A DNA stretch of 64,000 bases from Streptococcus sanguinis (lineage in GTDB: Bacteria > Bacillota > Bacilli > Lactobacillales > Streptococcaceae): assembly GCF_003943655.1 (NCBI RefSeq), contig NZ_RJMM01000004.1:13591-77590 (forward strand), written 5' to 3'. Position 1 is the stretch's first letter. Each line of letters starts with the position of its first letter. Of the stretch, positions 56,090 to 62,489 are shown piece by piece. Below the pieces are notes generated by a model, which was not told the DNA's origin, did not search any database, and saw nothing but the letters and a program-made list of their open reading frames with translations. The position numbers and the translations under genes are program-made.

Positions 56090-57067
56090 TTACCAGTCCT
56101 TGTCAAATTCACTTTTTACATCTGCAAGACAAAAGCTTCCATCCTCCTGTCTTCTGAAAATCAAGGCTACTCTATCACTTTTTCGTTCAGTATCTGATTT
56201 TCGTATATTAATATACTGTATGCTCAATGATAAGGGGTCAAAATCTGTATCATTCCCATGAATATTACTGTAAGAGGGTAATCCAAAACGTTCAACAACT
56301 TCTTGATAAGTCATACCACCTTTACCTCGCTGCCTATCGCCCAATATCAATGTATCGATATCTTCTGGCTTCCAGTTAAAGACAAACTCCTCTTTGGCAG
56401 CCACTGGATAGCGACTATCGTCCAAGAACAATGCCGATTTAGTTATCAAATAGTACTCCTTGCCATTGGAATCGGGATCAAAAAAACCTAGTCTTATCTC
56501 CTGAGGATGATCAGATAAGCTGTTTTTTTCTATATCCATCACCCTTGTCTTATAAGTTAGTGTCAATCCATTTTCGGTAAAACTCACATTTGAACCCTTA
56601 CCGTATTTCGTAATAACTTCTTCCAAAGTCGGATTATTCTTCCACCCCCCAACTTTTGCTATTTTGAGTTCTACAAAATTGTCTAATGTCCATTTAAAAG
56701 CAAACTTTTTTTCATCTTCTACCACAAGTTTATTTTTAAGTTCCTTCTGTTTCTTGTCCATTTCTAACTCAGGTTCATCTTGCTGAGTAGTAGAGCTTTC
56801 TTTACTAACTGACGAGACTGTCTTATCTTCTTTGTGTTTAGCATTGTCCTTGTTAGGAACCTTTAGTGATAAATAATAGAAGCCAAAGAATAAAGTAAAT
56901 GATATGGTTAAACAAAGAAGAATAAAGGCCAAGTTAGTCCTTTTTTTCTTCTCTTGTATGGCCATCATGCTGAGTTCTTCTCTTTTTATCTTTTGTTGTC
57001 TATAAAGTTCCTTTTTTATATCTCTAAATGAATTGGAATCATGTTTTTTCTTGCTATTCTTTCTCAA
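56090..57067 (-). CDS. Membrane-anchored protein with two BLIP/SmpA-like repeats (paralogue 1)
   Basis: A 325-residue protein with a basic cytoplasmic N-terminus (about 1-45), one membrane segment (about 49-68, LAFILLCLTISFTLFFGFYY), a linker, and two copies of an approximately 100-residue extracellular domain. Each copy starts F-x-W-x-x-(E/D) (FAFKWTLDNFVELKIAK; FVFNWKPEDIDTLILGD) and has a TxEEVxxxYG/FG-x-P core (LEEVITKYGKG; YQEVVERFGLPS), like the BLIP/SmpA-OmlA fold (DUF3862-type). The function is unknown. The paralogue 57093-57935 lies 25 bp upstream. Confidence 0.72.
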   Translation of the reverse strand: MRKNSKKKHDSNSFRDIKKELYRQQKIKREELSMMAIQEKKKRTNLAFILLCLTISFTLFFGFYYLSLKVPNKDNAKHKEDKTVSSVSKESSTTQQDEPELEMDKKQKELKNKLVVEDEKKFAFKWTLDNFVELKIAKVGGWKNNPTLEEVITKYGKGSNVSFTENGLTLTYKTRVMDIEKNSLSDHPQEIRLGFFDPDSNGKEYYLITKSALFLDDSRYPVAAKEEFVFNWKPEDIDTLILGDRQRGKGGMTYQEVVERFGLPSYSNIHGNDTDFDPLSLSIQYINIRKSDTERKSDRVALIFRRQEDGSFCLADVKSEFDKDW

Positions 57068-57092
57068 GTTTGTCTCCTCTTTCTTATTTAGT

Positions 57093-57935
57093 TTACTGGC
57101 TTTGTTTAGAAACTAAACGCCATGTTCCATCTTCTTGGTTGTAGAATTCTAGAATAACAGTCTGTAATTTATTACGTTCTTTCCAACCCTTTGGATTATT
57201 ATAAGTAATCCTTAACTTAAGTTGATTGTTTTCTCCTGAAATTATTTGATAAAAAGGCAAACCAACATTTGAAACAATCTCATCATAATCCGTACCTTTG
57301 TCAGTACCTTCTCTAGCACCAATAACAAGACTATCTATATATTCTTTCGTCCAAAAAAAGTCTCTATTAGGATTTTTATCCACCTTAATTGCATTACTTG
57401 AAAGATTAAAGAACTTTGAGGTGAGCTTATAGACACCATCAAATTCAGCAAATATTAAAGATACATTGCCTATATTACCGTTTTTATCTTTCCAGAAAAG
57501 ACTAATATAGTTTCGGACTTCATGATTTGGTAATAAGTGGATCCATGAACCAGCTTCAACAGGTCTTCCAAATTCTTTTAAAACATCTTCCAAGACGGCT
57601 CCGCCTTTATCTTTGTCCATGTGTAGAGAAACTGCCTTGTCAACCGTCCAAAGAAAGGGACCACTTTTTTCTGGAGAAACTGTAAGACTTTCAGCGAATT
57701 TTTTTACTTCAGTCTCCTTATCCTCTAATTCTTTTGATGGTGAAATAATCTGACTTGACTGGCTCACCGGTTGCTTAGATTTAGCTTTTTCCGGTATGGA
57801 AAGCATTAAAAATACTGCTCCAATGATAGAAAAGCCAATAATGGCTAATAGAACGAATGGTAAGAACTTAGACTTAGAAGTCTCCTTCTCTAACTCAAAA
57901 GCAATATCTTCAAAAGAATCCTCTTTTCTCTTCAT
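57093..57935 (-). CDS. Membrane-anchored protein with two BLIP/SmpA-like repeats (paralogue 2)
   Basis: A 280-residue protein with the same plan as its neighbour: charged cytoplasmic start, membrane segment (about 25-46, FLPFVLLAIIGFSIIGAVFL), Ser/Lys-rich linker, then two repeats beginning FLWTVDKAVSLHM and FFWTKEYIDSLVIGA with cores LEDVLKEFGRP and YDEIVSNVGLP. The two genes probably arose by duplication and diverged. Both are A/T-rich compared with pyrK. Related domains in other proteins aid protein-protein contacts; nothing more specific can be said. Confidence 0.72.
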   Translation of the reverse strand: MKRKEDSFEDIAFELEKETSKSKFLPFVLLAIIGFSIIGAVFLMLSIPEKAKSKQPVSQSSQIISPSKELEDKETEVKKFAESLTVSPEKSGPFLWTVDKAVSLHMDKDKGGAVLEDVLKEFGRPVEAGSWIHLLPNHEVRNYISLFWKDKNGNIGNVSLIFAEFDGVYKLTSKFFNLSSNAIKVDKNPNRDFFWTKEYIDSLVIGAREGTDKGTDYDEIVSNVGLPFYQIISGENNQLKLRITYNNPKGWKERNKLQTVILEFYNQEDGTWRLVSKQSQ

Positions 57936-58181: not shown

Positions 58182-59090
58182 ATGAGAATTCAACAGTTAC
58201 ACTATATTATCAAAATCGTCGAGACTGGCAGTATGAACGAAGCTGCTAAGCAGCTTTTCATTACTCAGCCTAGCTTGTCCAATGCTGTGCGAGATTTGGA
58301 AAATGAAATGGGCATCGAGATTTTCATTCGCAATCCCAAAGGAATTACCTTGACCAAGGACGGCATGGAGTTTCTTTCTTATGCCCGTCAGGTAGTTGAG
58401 CAGACTCAGCTTCTAGAGGAGAGATACAAAAACCCTGTCGCCCACCGCGAGCTTTTCAGCGTTTCAGCCCAGCACTATGCCTTTGTGGTCAATGCCTTCG
58501 TGTCCTTGCTTAAAAAAAGCGATATGGAGAAATACGAGCTCTTTCTGCGGGAAACTCGAACTTGGGAGATCATTGACGACGTAAAAAACTTCCGCAGCGA
58601 AATCGGCGTCCTCTTTCTCAATAGCTACAACCGCGATGTCCTATCCAAGATGCTGGATGACAATCATCTGATTGCCACTCATCTCTTCACAGCTCAACCC
58701 CATATCTTTGTCAGCAAGTCCAATCCGCTGGCCAAGAAAAAACTGGTTCAATTATCTGACTTAGAAAACTTCCCTTACCTCAGCTACGACCAAGGGACCC
58801 ACAACTCTTTCTACTTTTCAGAGGAAATTCTCTCTCAGGAACACCATAAAAAATCTATCGTGGTCAGCGACCGTGCGACCCTCTTTAACCTTTTGATCGG
58901 TCTGGATGGCTACACGATTGCAACCGGTATTCTCAATAGCAACCTCAACGGAGATAATATCGTGTCAATCCCACTGGACATTGATGATCCGATTGAACTG
59001 GTCTACATCCAGCACGAAAAAGCCAGCCTATCCAAAATGGGAGAACGCTTCATTGAGTATCTGATTGAGGAAGTGAAGTTTGATAAATAA
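58182..59090 (+). CDS. cpsY: LysR-type regulator, CpsY/MtaR-like
   Basis: A 302-residue LysR-family regulator: winged helix at 1-60 (MRIQQLHYIIKIVETGSMNE, QLFITQPSLSNAVRDLE) and a periplasmic-binding-like effector domain from about 90. The sequence follows from memory the CpsY/MtaR/MetR group of streptococci, which controls methionine uptake and synthesis and in some species wall or immune-evasion traits. The exact regulon here is not visible. TAAAAT lies six bases before the ATG and there is no ribosome binding site. It converges on sir2. Confidence 0.88.
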   Translation: MRIQQLHYIIKIVETGSMNEAAKQLFITQPSLSNAVRDLENEMGIEIFIRNPKGITLTKDGMEFLSYARQVVEQTQLLEERYKNPVAHRELFSVSAQHYAFVVNAFVSLLKKSDMEKYELFLRETRTWEIIDDVKNFRSEIGVLFLNSYNRDVLSKMLDDNHLIATHLFTAQPHIFVSKSNPLAKKKLVQLSDLENFPYLSYDQGTHNSFYFSEEILSQEHHKKSIVVSDRATLFNLLIGLDGYTIATGILNSNLNGDNIVSIPLDIDDPIELVYIQHEKASLSKMGERFIEYLIEEVKFDK

Positions 59091-59094
59091 ACTG

Positions 59095-59130
59095 AAAAAA
59101 CACCTGAAAAAGCTTTTTCAGGTGTTTTTT
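59095..59130. terminator. Bidirectional terminator formed by a 36-base perfect palindrome
   Basis: AAAAAACACCTGAAAAAG followed by its exact complement. It serves both the LysR gene and sir2, whose stop codon (59131-59133) is adjacent. Confidence 0.92.
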
Positions 59131-59862
59131 CTATTGTTTCAACTTCCCCAACACTTCTCCTATCTTGCCCTCAATAACAAGGTCCGCTTGACTGTCTTGA
59201 GGGATGCTGGTTTTGTTGATGACGACCAGATGCTTACCTGAAAAGTACTGGATGAGGCTGGCTGCGGGATAGACAACTAAGGATGTTCCACCAATTATCA
59301 GCAGGTCTGCTTGCTGGATAGCCTGGGCAGCCTGCTGGAAAACTTCCATATCTAGCGGTTCTTCATAGAGTGTCACATCTGGCTTGACAATACCTCCACA
59401 GTCAAGGCAGCGAGGAATGGTACCGTGCAGAGCCAGAAAGCCGTCCAAATTATAGAATCGCTTACAATTCAGACAGTAATTTCTATCCGCACTGCCATGT
59501 AATTTGAGAACCTTTTTCGAACCGGCCATTTCATGCAAACTATCGATATTTTGAGTCACCACAGCCTTGAGCTTACCTGCTTTCTCCAAGTCTGCCAAGT
59601 AGACATGAGCAGCATTGGGCTTAGCATCCGGATAGAGCAGGTACTTCTTGTAGAAGTCGAAAAACTCCTGCGGATAGCGCTCAAACATAGTGTGAGAAAC
59701 CAGCTGCTCTGCTGTAAAATGCCGTCCCAGCTTGACGCTGTATATCCCATCTGAACTGCGGAAGTCTGGAATATTGGACTCAGTCGAAACACCCGCACCA
59801 CCGAAAAAGACGATATTTTGACTTTGTTCTATCAATTCTTGCAACCTTGCAATCTTATCCAT
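59131..59862 (-). CDS. Sir2-family NAD-dependent protein deacylase
   Basis: Removes acyl groups from lysines using NAD. The 243-residue product has FFGGAGVSTESNIPDFRS (about 19-36), TQNIDSLHEMAGS, the catalytic histidine in KLHGSADRNY and zinc ligands in CLNCKRF and CLDCGG. With these features it is a standard deacylase, unlike the NADase SIR2 domains of phage-defence proteins. It lies 11 bp after the HEPN-like gene in the deoD unit, so it may be cotranscribed with nucleoside salvage genes. Confidence 0.93.
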   Translation of the reverse strand: MDKIARLQELIEQSQNIVFFGGAGVSTESNIPDFRSSDGIYSVKLGRHFTAEQLVSHTMFERYPQEFFDFYKKYLLYPDAKPNAAHVYLADLEKAGKLKAVVTQNIDSLHEMAGSKKVLKLHGSADRNYCLNCKRFYNLDGFLALHGTIPRCLDCGGIVKPDVTLYEEPLDMEVFQQAAQAIQQADLLIIGGTSLVVYPAASLIQYFSGKHLVVINKTSIPQDSQADLVIEGKIGEVLGKLKQ

Positions 59863-59873
59863 CCTGCTACCCC

Positions 59874-60635
59874 TTATAAGAGACTTTCTATGAGCTCATT
59901 CGCTCGGTCAAAGTAAAAAGGTTCCCTCTGGTAAACTATGCCTGTCTCCTGCGCCAAATCAACCAGAAGTTCCAAAAAGTGCTGAGATGAGAAACCTGTC
60001 GTCCTGTGCAATTCTTCCTCATCGAAAGGCTTGATAAGGTGAGCCAACGGATTGCGGACTGACTTTTCTAACTCTCTTAGCTGCCGTGCCGACTCTTTGA
60101 CAGATTCGGGCAAATTCAACTGCAAAATCAGCTCCGTCAAACTAGAAGAATTAACCGTGCTTTCCGCATGAAAATTTTGCAAGTCAGGATTATCAGAATT
60201 TCGCATCTTTTCAAACTTCCATCGGTCGTAACTAGCCCCTCGCGAATTATGAATATAGCTCTCAATATCTGGTATTTGCATGCGAATCAACCGCATAAAA
60301 ATCCAATAAATAGCCGGACTGACAGCTCGGATAAAATCAATCAGCTGCTCATTCCTTAGCTTAGCTTCAAGGTCATAAAGGTAATTGACCAGCTGCTCAT
60401 CCGCTTCATCTTCATGGCAAAAAAGCTGAAAATCAGCTAGGACAGACCCAGTGATTTCCAACTTTAGATTCATCATAGATTGGATGTTGAGTTCTCTTCG
60501 CTCCGCTAAAGCGCCAAGAAGACGGACCAAGTCAGACTGGACACCACTTCCTGCTCTCTCAGCTAGTTTATGAGCATAAGCATAGTCATAGCGGGAAATA
60601 GCAAAGAGAATGGCTTCTTTGACATCTACTTTCAT
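59874..60635 (-). CDS. Csm6-like HEPN protein without a CARF domain
   Basis: A 253-residue soluble helical protein. Near the C-terminus [20 protein letters not shown] contains R194-N-P-L-A-H199, the R-x4-H motif of HEPN ribonucleases, followed by [19 protein letters not shown], a layout close to the C-terminal half of Csm6. The N-terminal helical part could match the linking 6H region. No CARF domain, CRISPR array or cas gene is present. ATG overlaps the deoD stop as ATGA, so translation is coupled to a purine nucleoside phosphorylase. RNase activity is an inference. Confidence 0.72.
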
Positions 60636-61345
60636 GCTTCTGCAATCAAGGTTTCCAAACCAACCTTCATCATATCGGTGAAGGTATTTTGACGTTCTTC
60701 TGCAGTCGTGTCTTCTTCTGGATTGACTAAGCTGTCAGAAATAGTCATGATAGCAAGAGCAGCCACATGGTGTTGAGCAGCCAAATAGTAAAGAGCTGCC
60801 GCTTCCATTTCAACTGCCTTAACCCCCCACTTACCAAGCTCGATATTCTTTTCAAAGTAGTTTGAGTAAAAGACATCAGACGACAAGACGTTTCCAACGT
60901 GCGTCGTCATACCGAGATCTTTGGCGATATGATAGGCCTTATCTAACAAATCAAAGCTAGCGATTTGCGGAAAATCATACTGTGGCCAGTCATTACGGAT
61001 AATGTTAGAGTTAGTTGCAGCCGCCTGAGCCAGTACTAATTCACGGACATGCACATCAGCATTCAGTGATCCAGCAGTTCCCACACGAATCAACTTTTTC
61101 ATACCGTAATCAACAATCAGCTCACGCGCATAGATAGAGATAGACGGCATTCCCATCCCTGTCCCCATAACAGAAACACGCTCGCCTTTGTAAGTACCTG
61201 TATAACCAAACATGTTACGGACTTCATTGAAGCAAACAGCATCTTCTAGGAAATTCTCCGCAATAAATTTGGCCCGAAGTGGATCCCCCGGAAGAAGGAT
61301 TTTATCCGCAATTTCACCTGGCTTAGCAGAAATATGAATAGACAT
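60632..61345 (-). CDS. deoD: Purine nucleoside phosphorylase, DeoD type
   Basis: Splits purine (deoxy)nucleosides to base and pentose 1-phosphate. The 237-residue product is the hexameric type: [17 protein letters not shown] (about 19-35), [26 protein letters not shown] and [12 protein letters not shown] with the base-binding aspartate in ISDSLVN. ATG at 61345 ([10 protein letters not shown]) matches the family; the frame to 61420 is rejected. It has no clear ribosome binding site. It is upstream of the HEPN-like gene (4-base overlap). Confidence 0.96.
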
Positions 61346-61676: not shown

Positions 61677-62489
61677 TTACAATTCAGCAAGTGTTTCTTT
61701 AAGCAGTCGTTTAAAATCACCTTTGACACGTTCTGTTACTTCAACCACTTCCTCATGATTTAGCTCTTCTTGGAACCCAGCAGCAAAGTTTGTAATGCAT
61801 GAAATCCCAAGGACTTTCAAACCAGAATGTGCTGCTACAATCACTTCAGGAACAGTAGACATGCCGACTGCATCTGCTCCGAGCGTCTTATAAGCACGGA
61901 TTTCTGCAGGCGTTTCGTAAGTTGGTCCAGTTACACCGATATAGACACCCTCATCCAGCTTGATACCAAGCTTATCAGCAACTTTATGAGCGACGGTACG
62001 GTATTCTGGAGTGTAAGATTTAGACATATCAGGGAAACGCGGACCAAATTCATCCAAGTTTTCACCGATCAAAGGATTTTGACCAGTCATATTGATGTGG
62101 TCAGTGATCGCCATAAGCGTACCTGGACCATAGCCGATACCACCGGCAGCATTAGTGACAATAACACCTTTCGCACCAAGAGCCTTCATCACACGCACTG
62201 GGAAAGTAACAATGTCTAAAGGATTTCCTTCATAGAAATGGAAACGGCCTTGCAGTGCCAAGACTTTCCGTCCTGCCAAGTCTCCATAAACTAATTTACC
62301 AGCGTGACCAACAACAGTTGAGCGGCCCCAGTTTGGAATATCCGCATAGTCAAGACTAACAGCATTTTCAATTTCTTCAGCCAATTCTCCCAAACCAGAT
62401 CCCAAGATCAGACCAAATTCAGGCTCTGTCATACCTTTTTCTTTTAAGAAGGCTGCTGTTGCTTTGATTTTTTCTGATAAGCTTGTCAT
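61677..62489 (-). CDS. punA: Purine nucleoside phosphorylase I, trimeric type
   Basis: Phosphorolysis of guanosine and inosine. The 270-residue trimeric-type enzyme has LILGSGLGELAEEIE (about 26-40), the phosphate loop TVVGHAGKLVYG, LQGRFHFYEG, VTNAAGGIGYGPGTLMAITDHINMTGQ (cited in parts: TNAAGGIG, TDHINMTG), GVYIGVTGPTYETPAE and the base-binding asparagine in CITNFAAG. It follows deoB after 29 bp. With deoD, the genome encodes both structural classes of purine nucleoside phosphorylase side by side. Confidence 0.95.
   Translation of the reverse strand: MTSLSEKIKATAAFLKEKGMTEPEFGLILGSGLGELAEEIENAVSLDYADIPNWGRSTVVGHAGKLVYGDLAGRKVLALQGRFHFYEGNPLDIVTFPVRVMKALGAKGVIVTNAAGGIGYGPGTLMAITDHINMTGQNPLIGENLDEFGPRFPDMSKSYTPEYRTVAHKVADKLGIKLDEGVYIGVTGPTYETPAEIRAYKTLGADAVGMSTVPEVIVAAHSGLKVLGISCITNFAAGFQEELNHEEVVEVTERVKGDFKRLLKETLAEL

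Follow-up and report, generated by a model that had tools for sequence, protein, structure and literature searches.

Effectors that join a CARF domain to a HEPN domain are understood to be ribonucleases that are kept off until a cyclic oligoadenylate arrives. According to PMC4748810, one of them, the Csm6 of T. thermophilus (TtCsm6), cleaves single-stranded RNA without a metal and carries its motifs at the HEPN dimer interface. That paper also describes a Csm6 of S. mutans (SmCsm6, PDB 4RGP) as having no CARF domain and places its motif in an alpha helix. The S. mutans protein is filed in the PDB as a type III-A CRISPR protein. In the open-licence literature that we searched, this remark on SmCsm6 in PMC4748810 was the only description of an orphan or CARF-less Csm6 of streptococci or lactobacilli, and no account of a separate phylogeny, distribution or housekeeping context of such proteins was found there, nor any biochemistry on a member of the group. 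The fold is solved (4RGP) and the family name is known, and the gene described here is mis-labelled rather than unknown. As far as that literature goes, what is new is the separate lineage, its occurrence in two kinds of housekeeping operon and its separation from the type III-A locus nearby.

We found a relative of the S. mutans protein in a window of 64,000 nucleotides from Streptococcus sanguinis, by which we mean the whole stretch of DNA that was analysed. It is encoded by a minus-strand open reading frame in the interval between deoD and a LysR-type regulator. The features of this interval, in window positions, are as follows.

58182 to 59090, plus strand: gene for a LysR-type regulator (PF00126), convergent, which closes the interval.
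59094 to 59131, both strands: terminator-like inverted repeat of 17 pairs between sir2 and the LysR gene, from a consensus scan only.
59131 to 59862, minus strand: sir2, NAD-dependent protein deacylase (NF001752, E 1e-102), which accompanies the gene in some species only.
59874 to 60635, minus strand: CARF-less Csm6-type protein of 253 amino acids, from profile matches and an AlphaFold2 model, with 6H-like helices at about residues 1-75 and then a HEPN domain.
59889 to 60410, minus strand: HEPN domain, residues 76-249 (Pfam PF09659 match).
60039 to 60056, minus strand: HEPN catalytic motif R194-N195-P-L-A-H199, with R, N, P and H conserved in 59/59 intact Streptococcus copies.
60632 to 60635, minus strand: ATGA overlap of the deoD stop with the HEPN gene start, found in 49/59 intact loci and suggestive of translational coupling.
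60632 to 61345, minus strand: deoD, purine-nucleoside phosphorylase (NF004489, E 4e-115), with a likely start at MSIHIS in a frame that is open to 61420.
61677 to 62489, minus strand: upstream gene for a purine-nucleoside phosphorylase (PNP I, NF006054).

We suggest, as a reading that is reasonably probable, that the gene descends from a CRISPR effector which, after losing its sensor, settled in housekeeping operons as a HEPN ribonuclease that is inherited vertically. The following evidence bears on this.

The protein scored 73.6 bits (E 2.5e-20) against the Pfam family Cas_Csm6_HEPN (PF09659), the curated cut-off of which is 23.4 bits, and thus belongs to the family by score; the Csm6 6H domain of Pfam gave a weak match that was under its cut-off. 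TIGR02672, the csm6 model of NCBIfam, aligned with it only at model positions 186-433, past the CARF part, and at 113 bits it stayed below the equivalog cut-off of 150 bits. Because this alignment starts at position 186 and because of the Pfam score, we conclude that the protein lacks the N-terminal CARF domain of type III-A Csm6 and that its HEPN match is far beyond chance. The nearest solved structure by sequence was 4RGP (E 1.1e-64), a protein of the same family and architecture with 44-45% identity. In a structure search with the AlphaFold2 model (mean pLDDT 88.9), 4rgp_A was the best match, with a Z score of 28.5 and an rmsd of 2.0 over 249 residues; the Csm6 structures of E. italicus, S. 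epidermidis, S. thermophilus and T. thermophilus gave Z scores of 10.7-17.8, and the entries 6tug and 5yjc gave 17.8 and 17.3, respectively. The predicted structure is of the Csm6 type, 6H plus HEPN, with the motif at the end of helix 177-199. The sequence-only reading had taken this protein for a Csm6-like HEPN protein with an RNPLAH motif and no CARF domain; the profile, 4RGP and AlphaFold2 matches therefore show that this observation was correct, the predicted HEPN fold included.

In comparison with the CARF-bearing Csm6 of T. thermophilus, E. italicus, S. thermophilus and S. epidermidis, the window protein shares the 6H and HEPN fold. It also has the R-N-x(3-5)-H motif in common with the CARF-bearing Csm6 of the loci that we fetched and with TtCsm6, as given in PMC4748810. 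However, it has no CARF sensor, its genome gave no match to cas10, and the surroundings of its motif differ from those in the Csm6 of the fetched loci. R194, N195, P196 and H199 are kept in every intact Streptococcus copy of the alignment, so that the conservation of R194 and H199 among orthologues, on which the sequence-only reading depended, is complete. The R, N and H are also present in all 22 copies of a second, murA-linked group that is described below. A wider signature, R-x2-E-K/R-x2-R-N-x2-A/S-H, occurs in 62/62 Streptococcus copies (the 59 and three from other genomes) and in 22/22 murA-linked copies; among CARF-bearing Csm6 it was seen in one of the 20 of the order (L173) and in 0/7 of the phylum-level proteins that were added to the tree.

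Of 147 Streptococcus genomes, 63 gave a match to the CARF-less gene. The set of named loci described below includes S. sanguinis, S. gordonii, S. cristatus, S. parasanguinis, S. anginosus, S. agalactiae, S. equinus and S. uberis. Of the 63 copies fetched (that of the window and 62 more), 59 were intact and four were broken or partial (G088, G090, G098 and G121). Because the other 84 genomes have no match and because some copies are damaged, the gene is taken to be dispensable. At the level of the family it was present in one of ten genera and in 45 of 186 genomes. The order survey of 345 genomes revealed CARF-less copies in another 22 genomes, all of a second family (f4), which we take to be Lactobacillaceae from its gene order and group size, and a profile made for this family matched 25 of its 76 genomes and 14 of its 21 genera. 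Across the phylum (398 genomes), 18 genomes had a match to Csm6. Two of these matches were clearly CARF-less, both of them in Streptococcus, and the rest were CARF-bearing proteins or fragments.

The gene is under purifying selection, with a dN/dS of 0.128 over nine close genomes and of 0.140 against an S. gordonii-like copy; a third, more distant comparison, with an S. cristatus-like group, gave a negative dS and was unusable for this gene. The constraint is less than that on its neighbours, the values for deoD, punA and sir2 in the close set being 0.020, 0.067 and 0.069, respectively. Over 50 loci, the distances between the CARF-less proteins followed the distances of PunA and DeoB with a rank correlation of 0.68, and 0/999 permutations were as high, which supports vertical inheritance of the gene in Streptococcus. 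We also considered that it might be a cargo gene of mobile elements. The phage and plasmid records searched contained no match to the window protein, one murA-linked protein was not found in plasmids, and the Streptococcus and murA-linked profiles had no match in viral contigs, in scans that used two peptide patterns each and were not exhaustive; on these results the mobile cargo reading was rejected.

The upstream junction is well conserved in Streptococcus. As noticed from the sequence, the ATG of the HEPN gene (60635-60633) overlaps the TGA of deoD (60634-60632), and the overlap is 4 nt. Among the 59 intact copies, eight of those without the overlap start within 20 nt of deoD and two start about 780 nt away, beyond an extra gene. 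In L059 and L102 (from G042 and G043) the gene that lies between deoD and the CARF-less gene is small, and the open frame of the CARF-less gene begins about 60 residues earlier. On the downstream side, sir2 follows on the same strand after 11 nt. In 78 named loci, taken from the best 80 of 83 and picked by two conserved peptides, 74 have deoD no more than 150 nt upstream, while 33 have sir2 and 62 the LysR gene downstream. The gene set deoD-HEPN-sir2 proposed earlier holds for its first junction, but not for its third member, and a functional triad with Sir2 was rejected on this count. The median Shine-Dalgarno (SD) energy was -0.6 kcal/mol for the CARF-less gene (n=63), compared to -8.7 for sir2 (n=31), -7.8 for punA (n=79) and -6.4 for deoB (n=51). 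The contrast is not special to the CARF-less gene, because deoD at its chosen start, which is uncertain, is also weak (-0.4 kcal/mol, n=84). Translation coupled to that of deoD is probably the simplest reading of the overlap together with so little SD signal. PMC6951406 mentions deoD also as a flank of the exopolysaccharide locus of S. thermophilus.

In the second family the setting is another one. All 22 fetched loci have the CARF-less gene directly before murA, with gaps of -47 to 30 nt, and rho follows murA in 19 of them; MurA (E 2e-199) and Rho (E 1e-186) were scored in one locus (L149), and the other loci were assigned by ORF clustering. Neither deoD nor sir2 adjoins the gene in any of the 22, and at a distance each was seen in a single locus, three genes downstream (deoD in L150, a gene of the sir2 cluster in L160). 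By ORF clusters, no type III-A locus lies within about 5 kb of these genes. The deoD and murA contexts have no immediate neighbour gene in common. The proteins themselves belong to the same family: the three that were tested scored above the Pfam Csm6 HEPN cut-off, a profile of the group found 4RGP as its only match among PDB sequences at E values up to 0.1, and the model of one of them was confident (pLDDT 90.7).

The sequence-only reading had stated that there is no CRISPR locus in the window. A scan for 20-mers repeated at a spacing of 40-100 nt gave no array in the window, in line with that statement, but a Cas9-type locus lies on the same contig about 3.3 kb past its right end. This locus occupies about 80.9-89.6 kb of the contig (G000:C4; 3902-12647 in L283) and has an array of about 40 repeats with a spacing of 66 nt; its cas1 was scored, and cas9, cas2 and csn2 were read from ORFs. 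Among the 147 Streptococcus genomes, cas10 scored over the cut-off in nine, six of which are among the 63 that carry the CARF-less gene; the remaining 57 carriers gave no cas10 match over the cut-off. In seven of the nine (L040-L046), a type III-A locus lies in the very interval between deoD and the LysR gene. Six of them have the order deoD, CARF-less gene, sir2, cas1, cas2, cas6, cas10, csm2 to csm6 and LysR, and two of the six have csm4 or csm5 divided between two ORFs; the seventh (G070) has the III-A locus but neither the CARF-less gene nor sir2. L040 is the one locus in which the array between cas2 and cas6 was checked. The repeats of this array are visibly degenerate, and family models confirmed five of the cas and csm products of L040.

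For the phylogeny, the 62 Streptococcus copies were reduced to 34 (below 88% identity), and to 18 in the tree that included phylum-level Csm6. Both CARF-less groups, together with L173, were split from the other 19 of the 20 CARF-bearing Lactobacillales Csm6 at 100/100; in both trees the branches joining the CARF-less groups are long and were flagged by the tree tool. The CARF-less gene thus does not group with the type III-A Csm6 of its own order, and its closest CARF-bearing relative in the tree is L173. The L173 gene (551-1888), which has the wider signature, stands directly after a ribose transport and kinase operon, as read from ORFs; no cas-like ORF was seen in 12 kb around it, on a contig that ends about 0.5 kb beyond L173 on one side. 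At the phylum level, 17 further loci were tried, in ten of which an ORF matched the profile and in seven of which none did (L121, L268-L272 and L275). Three of the ten (L120, L122 and L123) repeated entries that the tree had from the same genomes, so that seven rows were added. Four of these group with the CARF-less lineage at 99/97. The stretches around the four contain cas10 in one case and cas1 with cas2 in the other three, with cas6 in two of these; two of the three contigs without cas10 are shorter than 5 kb, and the three are only presumed to be type III, as cas10 was seen in one of the four. When the two CARF-less groups were forced together, the cost was 0.23 log units (p-AU 0.474), and a single loss of the CARF domain may therefore be compatible with the tree.

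From this placement and from the cas-bearing relatives, we conclude that the CARF-less lineage most likely came from a CRISPR effector, but from one other than the III-A csm6 that now stands beside it. On the tree, the III-A locus and the CARF-less gene share an address and not a parent. The earlier suggestion of a domesticated defence module fits this phylogeny, in that the nearest CARF-bearing relatives, L173 apart, lie with cas genes.

The shared address could also be taken as a sign that the gene is the decaying leftover of a type III-A CRISPR locus which formerly filled this interval, since seven of the nine cas10-positive Streptococcus genomes have such a locus there and six of the seven keep the gene. 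We consider this very improbable. The adjacent csm6 falls in a separate group at 100/100, and the wider signature is missing from all but L173 of the 20 CARF-bearing proteins. Decay does not go with intact reading frames, an invariant active site and a dN/dS of 0.13, and the 22 murA-linked loci have, by ORF clusters, no III-A locus within about 5 kb. The tree, the signature and the selection on the gene thus led us to reject the remnant reading. The six genomes with the gene beside a III-A locus might instead suggest that the protein assists type III CRISPR in trans as an auxiliary subunit, for example in mixed dimers with a CARF-bearing Csm6. This we find hardly credible, because 57 of the 63 carrier genomes gave no match to cas10 over the cut-off, and the genome of the window gave none.

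The conserved junction, with deoD within 150 nt in 74/78 named loci and overlapped in 49/59 intact ones, and the distant deoD and sir2 of L150 and L160, would favour a purine- or NAD-responsive ribonuclease that works with DeoD and Sir2, as the sequence-only reading had supposed. However, sir2 follows the gene in 33/78 named loci only, the gene is absent from 84 of 147 Streptococcus genomes compared to deoD, which was found in 146 of them, and in the murA-linked group the adjacent genes are murA in 22/22 loci, and usually rho, with no adjacent deoD or sir2. A general tie to purine salvage and a functional tie to Sir2 are therefore not supported, and we give such a ribonuclease very little credence. 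A stand-alone defence module, in which a dormant HEPN toxin is freed by phage infection through a ligand of the 6H region or through the loss of a labile partner, seems unlikely to us. Among toxin and abortive-infection systems HEPN ribonucleases are common, according to PMC4748810, and the gene is patchy and sometimes broken. Its closest PADLOC models are candidate defence proteins of the CARF-HEPN kind: PDLC01797 ('CARF1--CARF_HEPN') scored best among the defence models with each of the four CARF-less proteins that were tested (E 7e-31 to 5e-39), although the N-terminal CARF part of that model, about 180 positions, is missing from the window protein. The HepT/MntA-type HEPN toxins resemble the window model in the HEPN fold at a Z score of about 5.9, a weak likeness in a range that is common for helical proteins, and unlike in those systems, no MNT antitoxin gene was found among the window neighbours scored. 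In addition, the deoD and murA contexts share no immediate partner gene, though an unlinked antitoxin is conceivable, and each group keeps to one chromosomal address, with a vertical signal in Streptococcus and no copies found on phages, plasmids or viral contigs.

We therefore return to the former CRISPR effector that lost its sensor. A CARF-bearing, CRISPR-associated ancestor would have lost both its cyclic oligoadenylate sensor and its CRISPR locus, and the resulting CARF-less lineage of Lactobacillales may have become fixed after deoD in Streptococcus and before murA, usually with rho, in the presumed Lactobacillaceae. By analogy with TtCsm6, we infer that the protein would form a homodimer, in which the HEPN interface brings the two R-N-x3-H motifs together, and would cleave single-stranded RNA without a metal. 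With the CARF domain missing, control by cyclic oligoadenylates is unlikely, and these molecules would not be expected to act on the protein. Its activity is probably restrained by a low rate of translation, which would be coupled to that of deoD and helped by only a slight ribosome-binding signal; a ligand or partner that acts at the 6H region may contribute. A possible role would be in housekeeping or stress RNA turnover. As to how active such a protein may be, PMC10897365 reports that full-length apo TtCsm6 is catalytically misaligned and that cA4 corrects this, a result which sits uneasily with an active CARF-deleted TtCsm6. A more detailed scenario is offered only tentatively: the sensor was shed early in Lactobacillales, and what remained is a predicted constitutively competent ribonuclease, limited by its expression, which serves in the deoD and murA-rho operons for RNA turnover or for a CRISPR-independent growth arrest.

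The retention of the CARF-less gene by related bacteria in operons of ordinary metabolism, with the predicted active site unchanged, suggests that it was recruited to a function outside CRISPR. A lineage that has a complete active site and no sensor, and that persists in two bacterial families, raises the questions of how the host is spared and what is cut. This reading would also correct the view of 4RGP as a CRISPR-associated protein and would have such genes marked as non-CRISPR in annotation pipelines.

Two minor observations concern the window itself. At 56090-57935 two ORFs stand in tandem; they belong to a single sequence cluster, have a hydrophobic stretch at the N terminus and match no Pfam family clearly. 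The window copy of the CARF-less protein is 91-95% identical to the copies of seven named S. sanguinis records, and its codon 111 (60303-60305) is TGG, giving W111, at a position where arginine is found in 59 of 60 aligned Streptococcus copies (one truncated). W111 is thus a change particular to this strain, at a site that hardly varies within the Streptococcus group.
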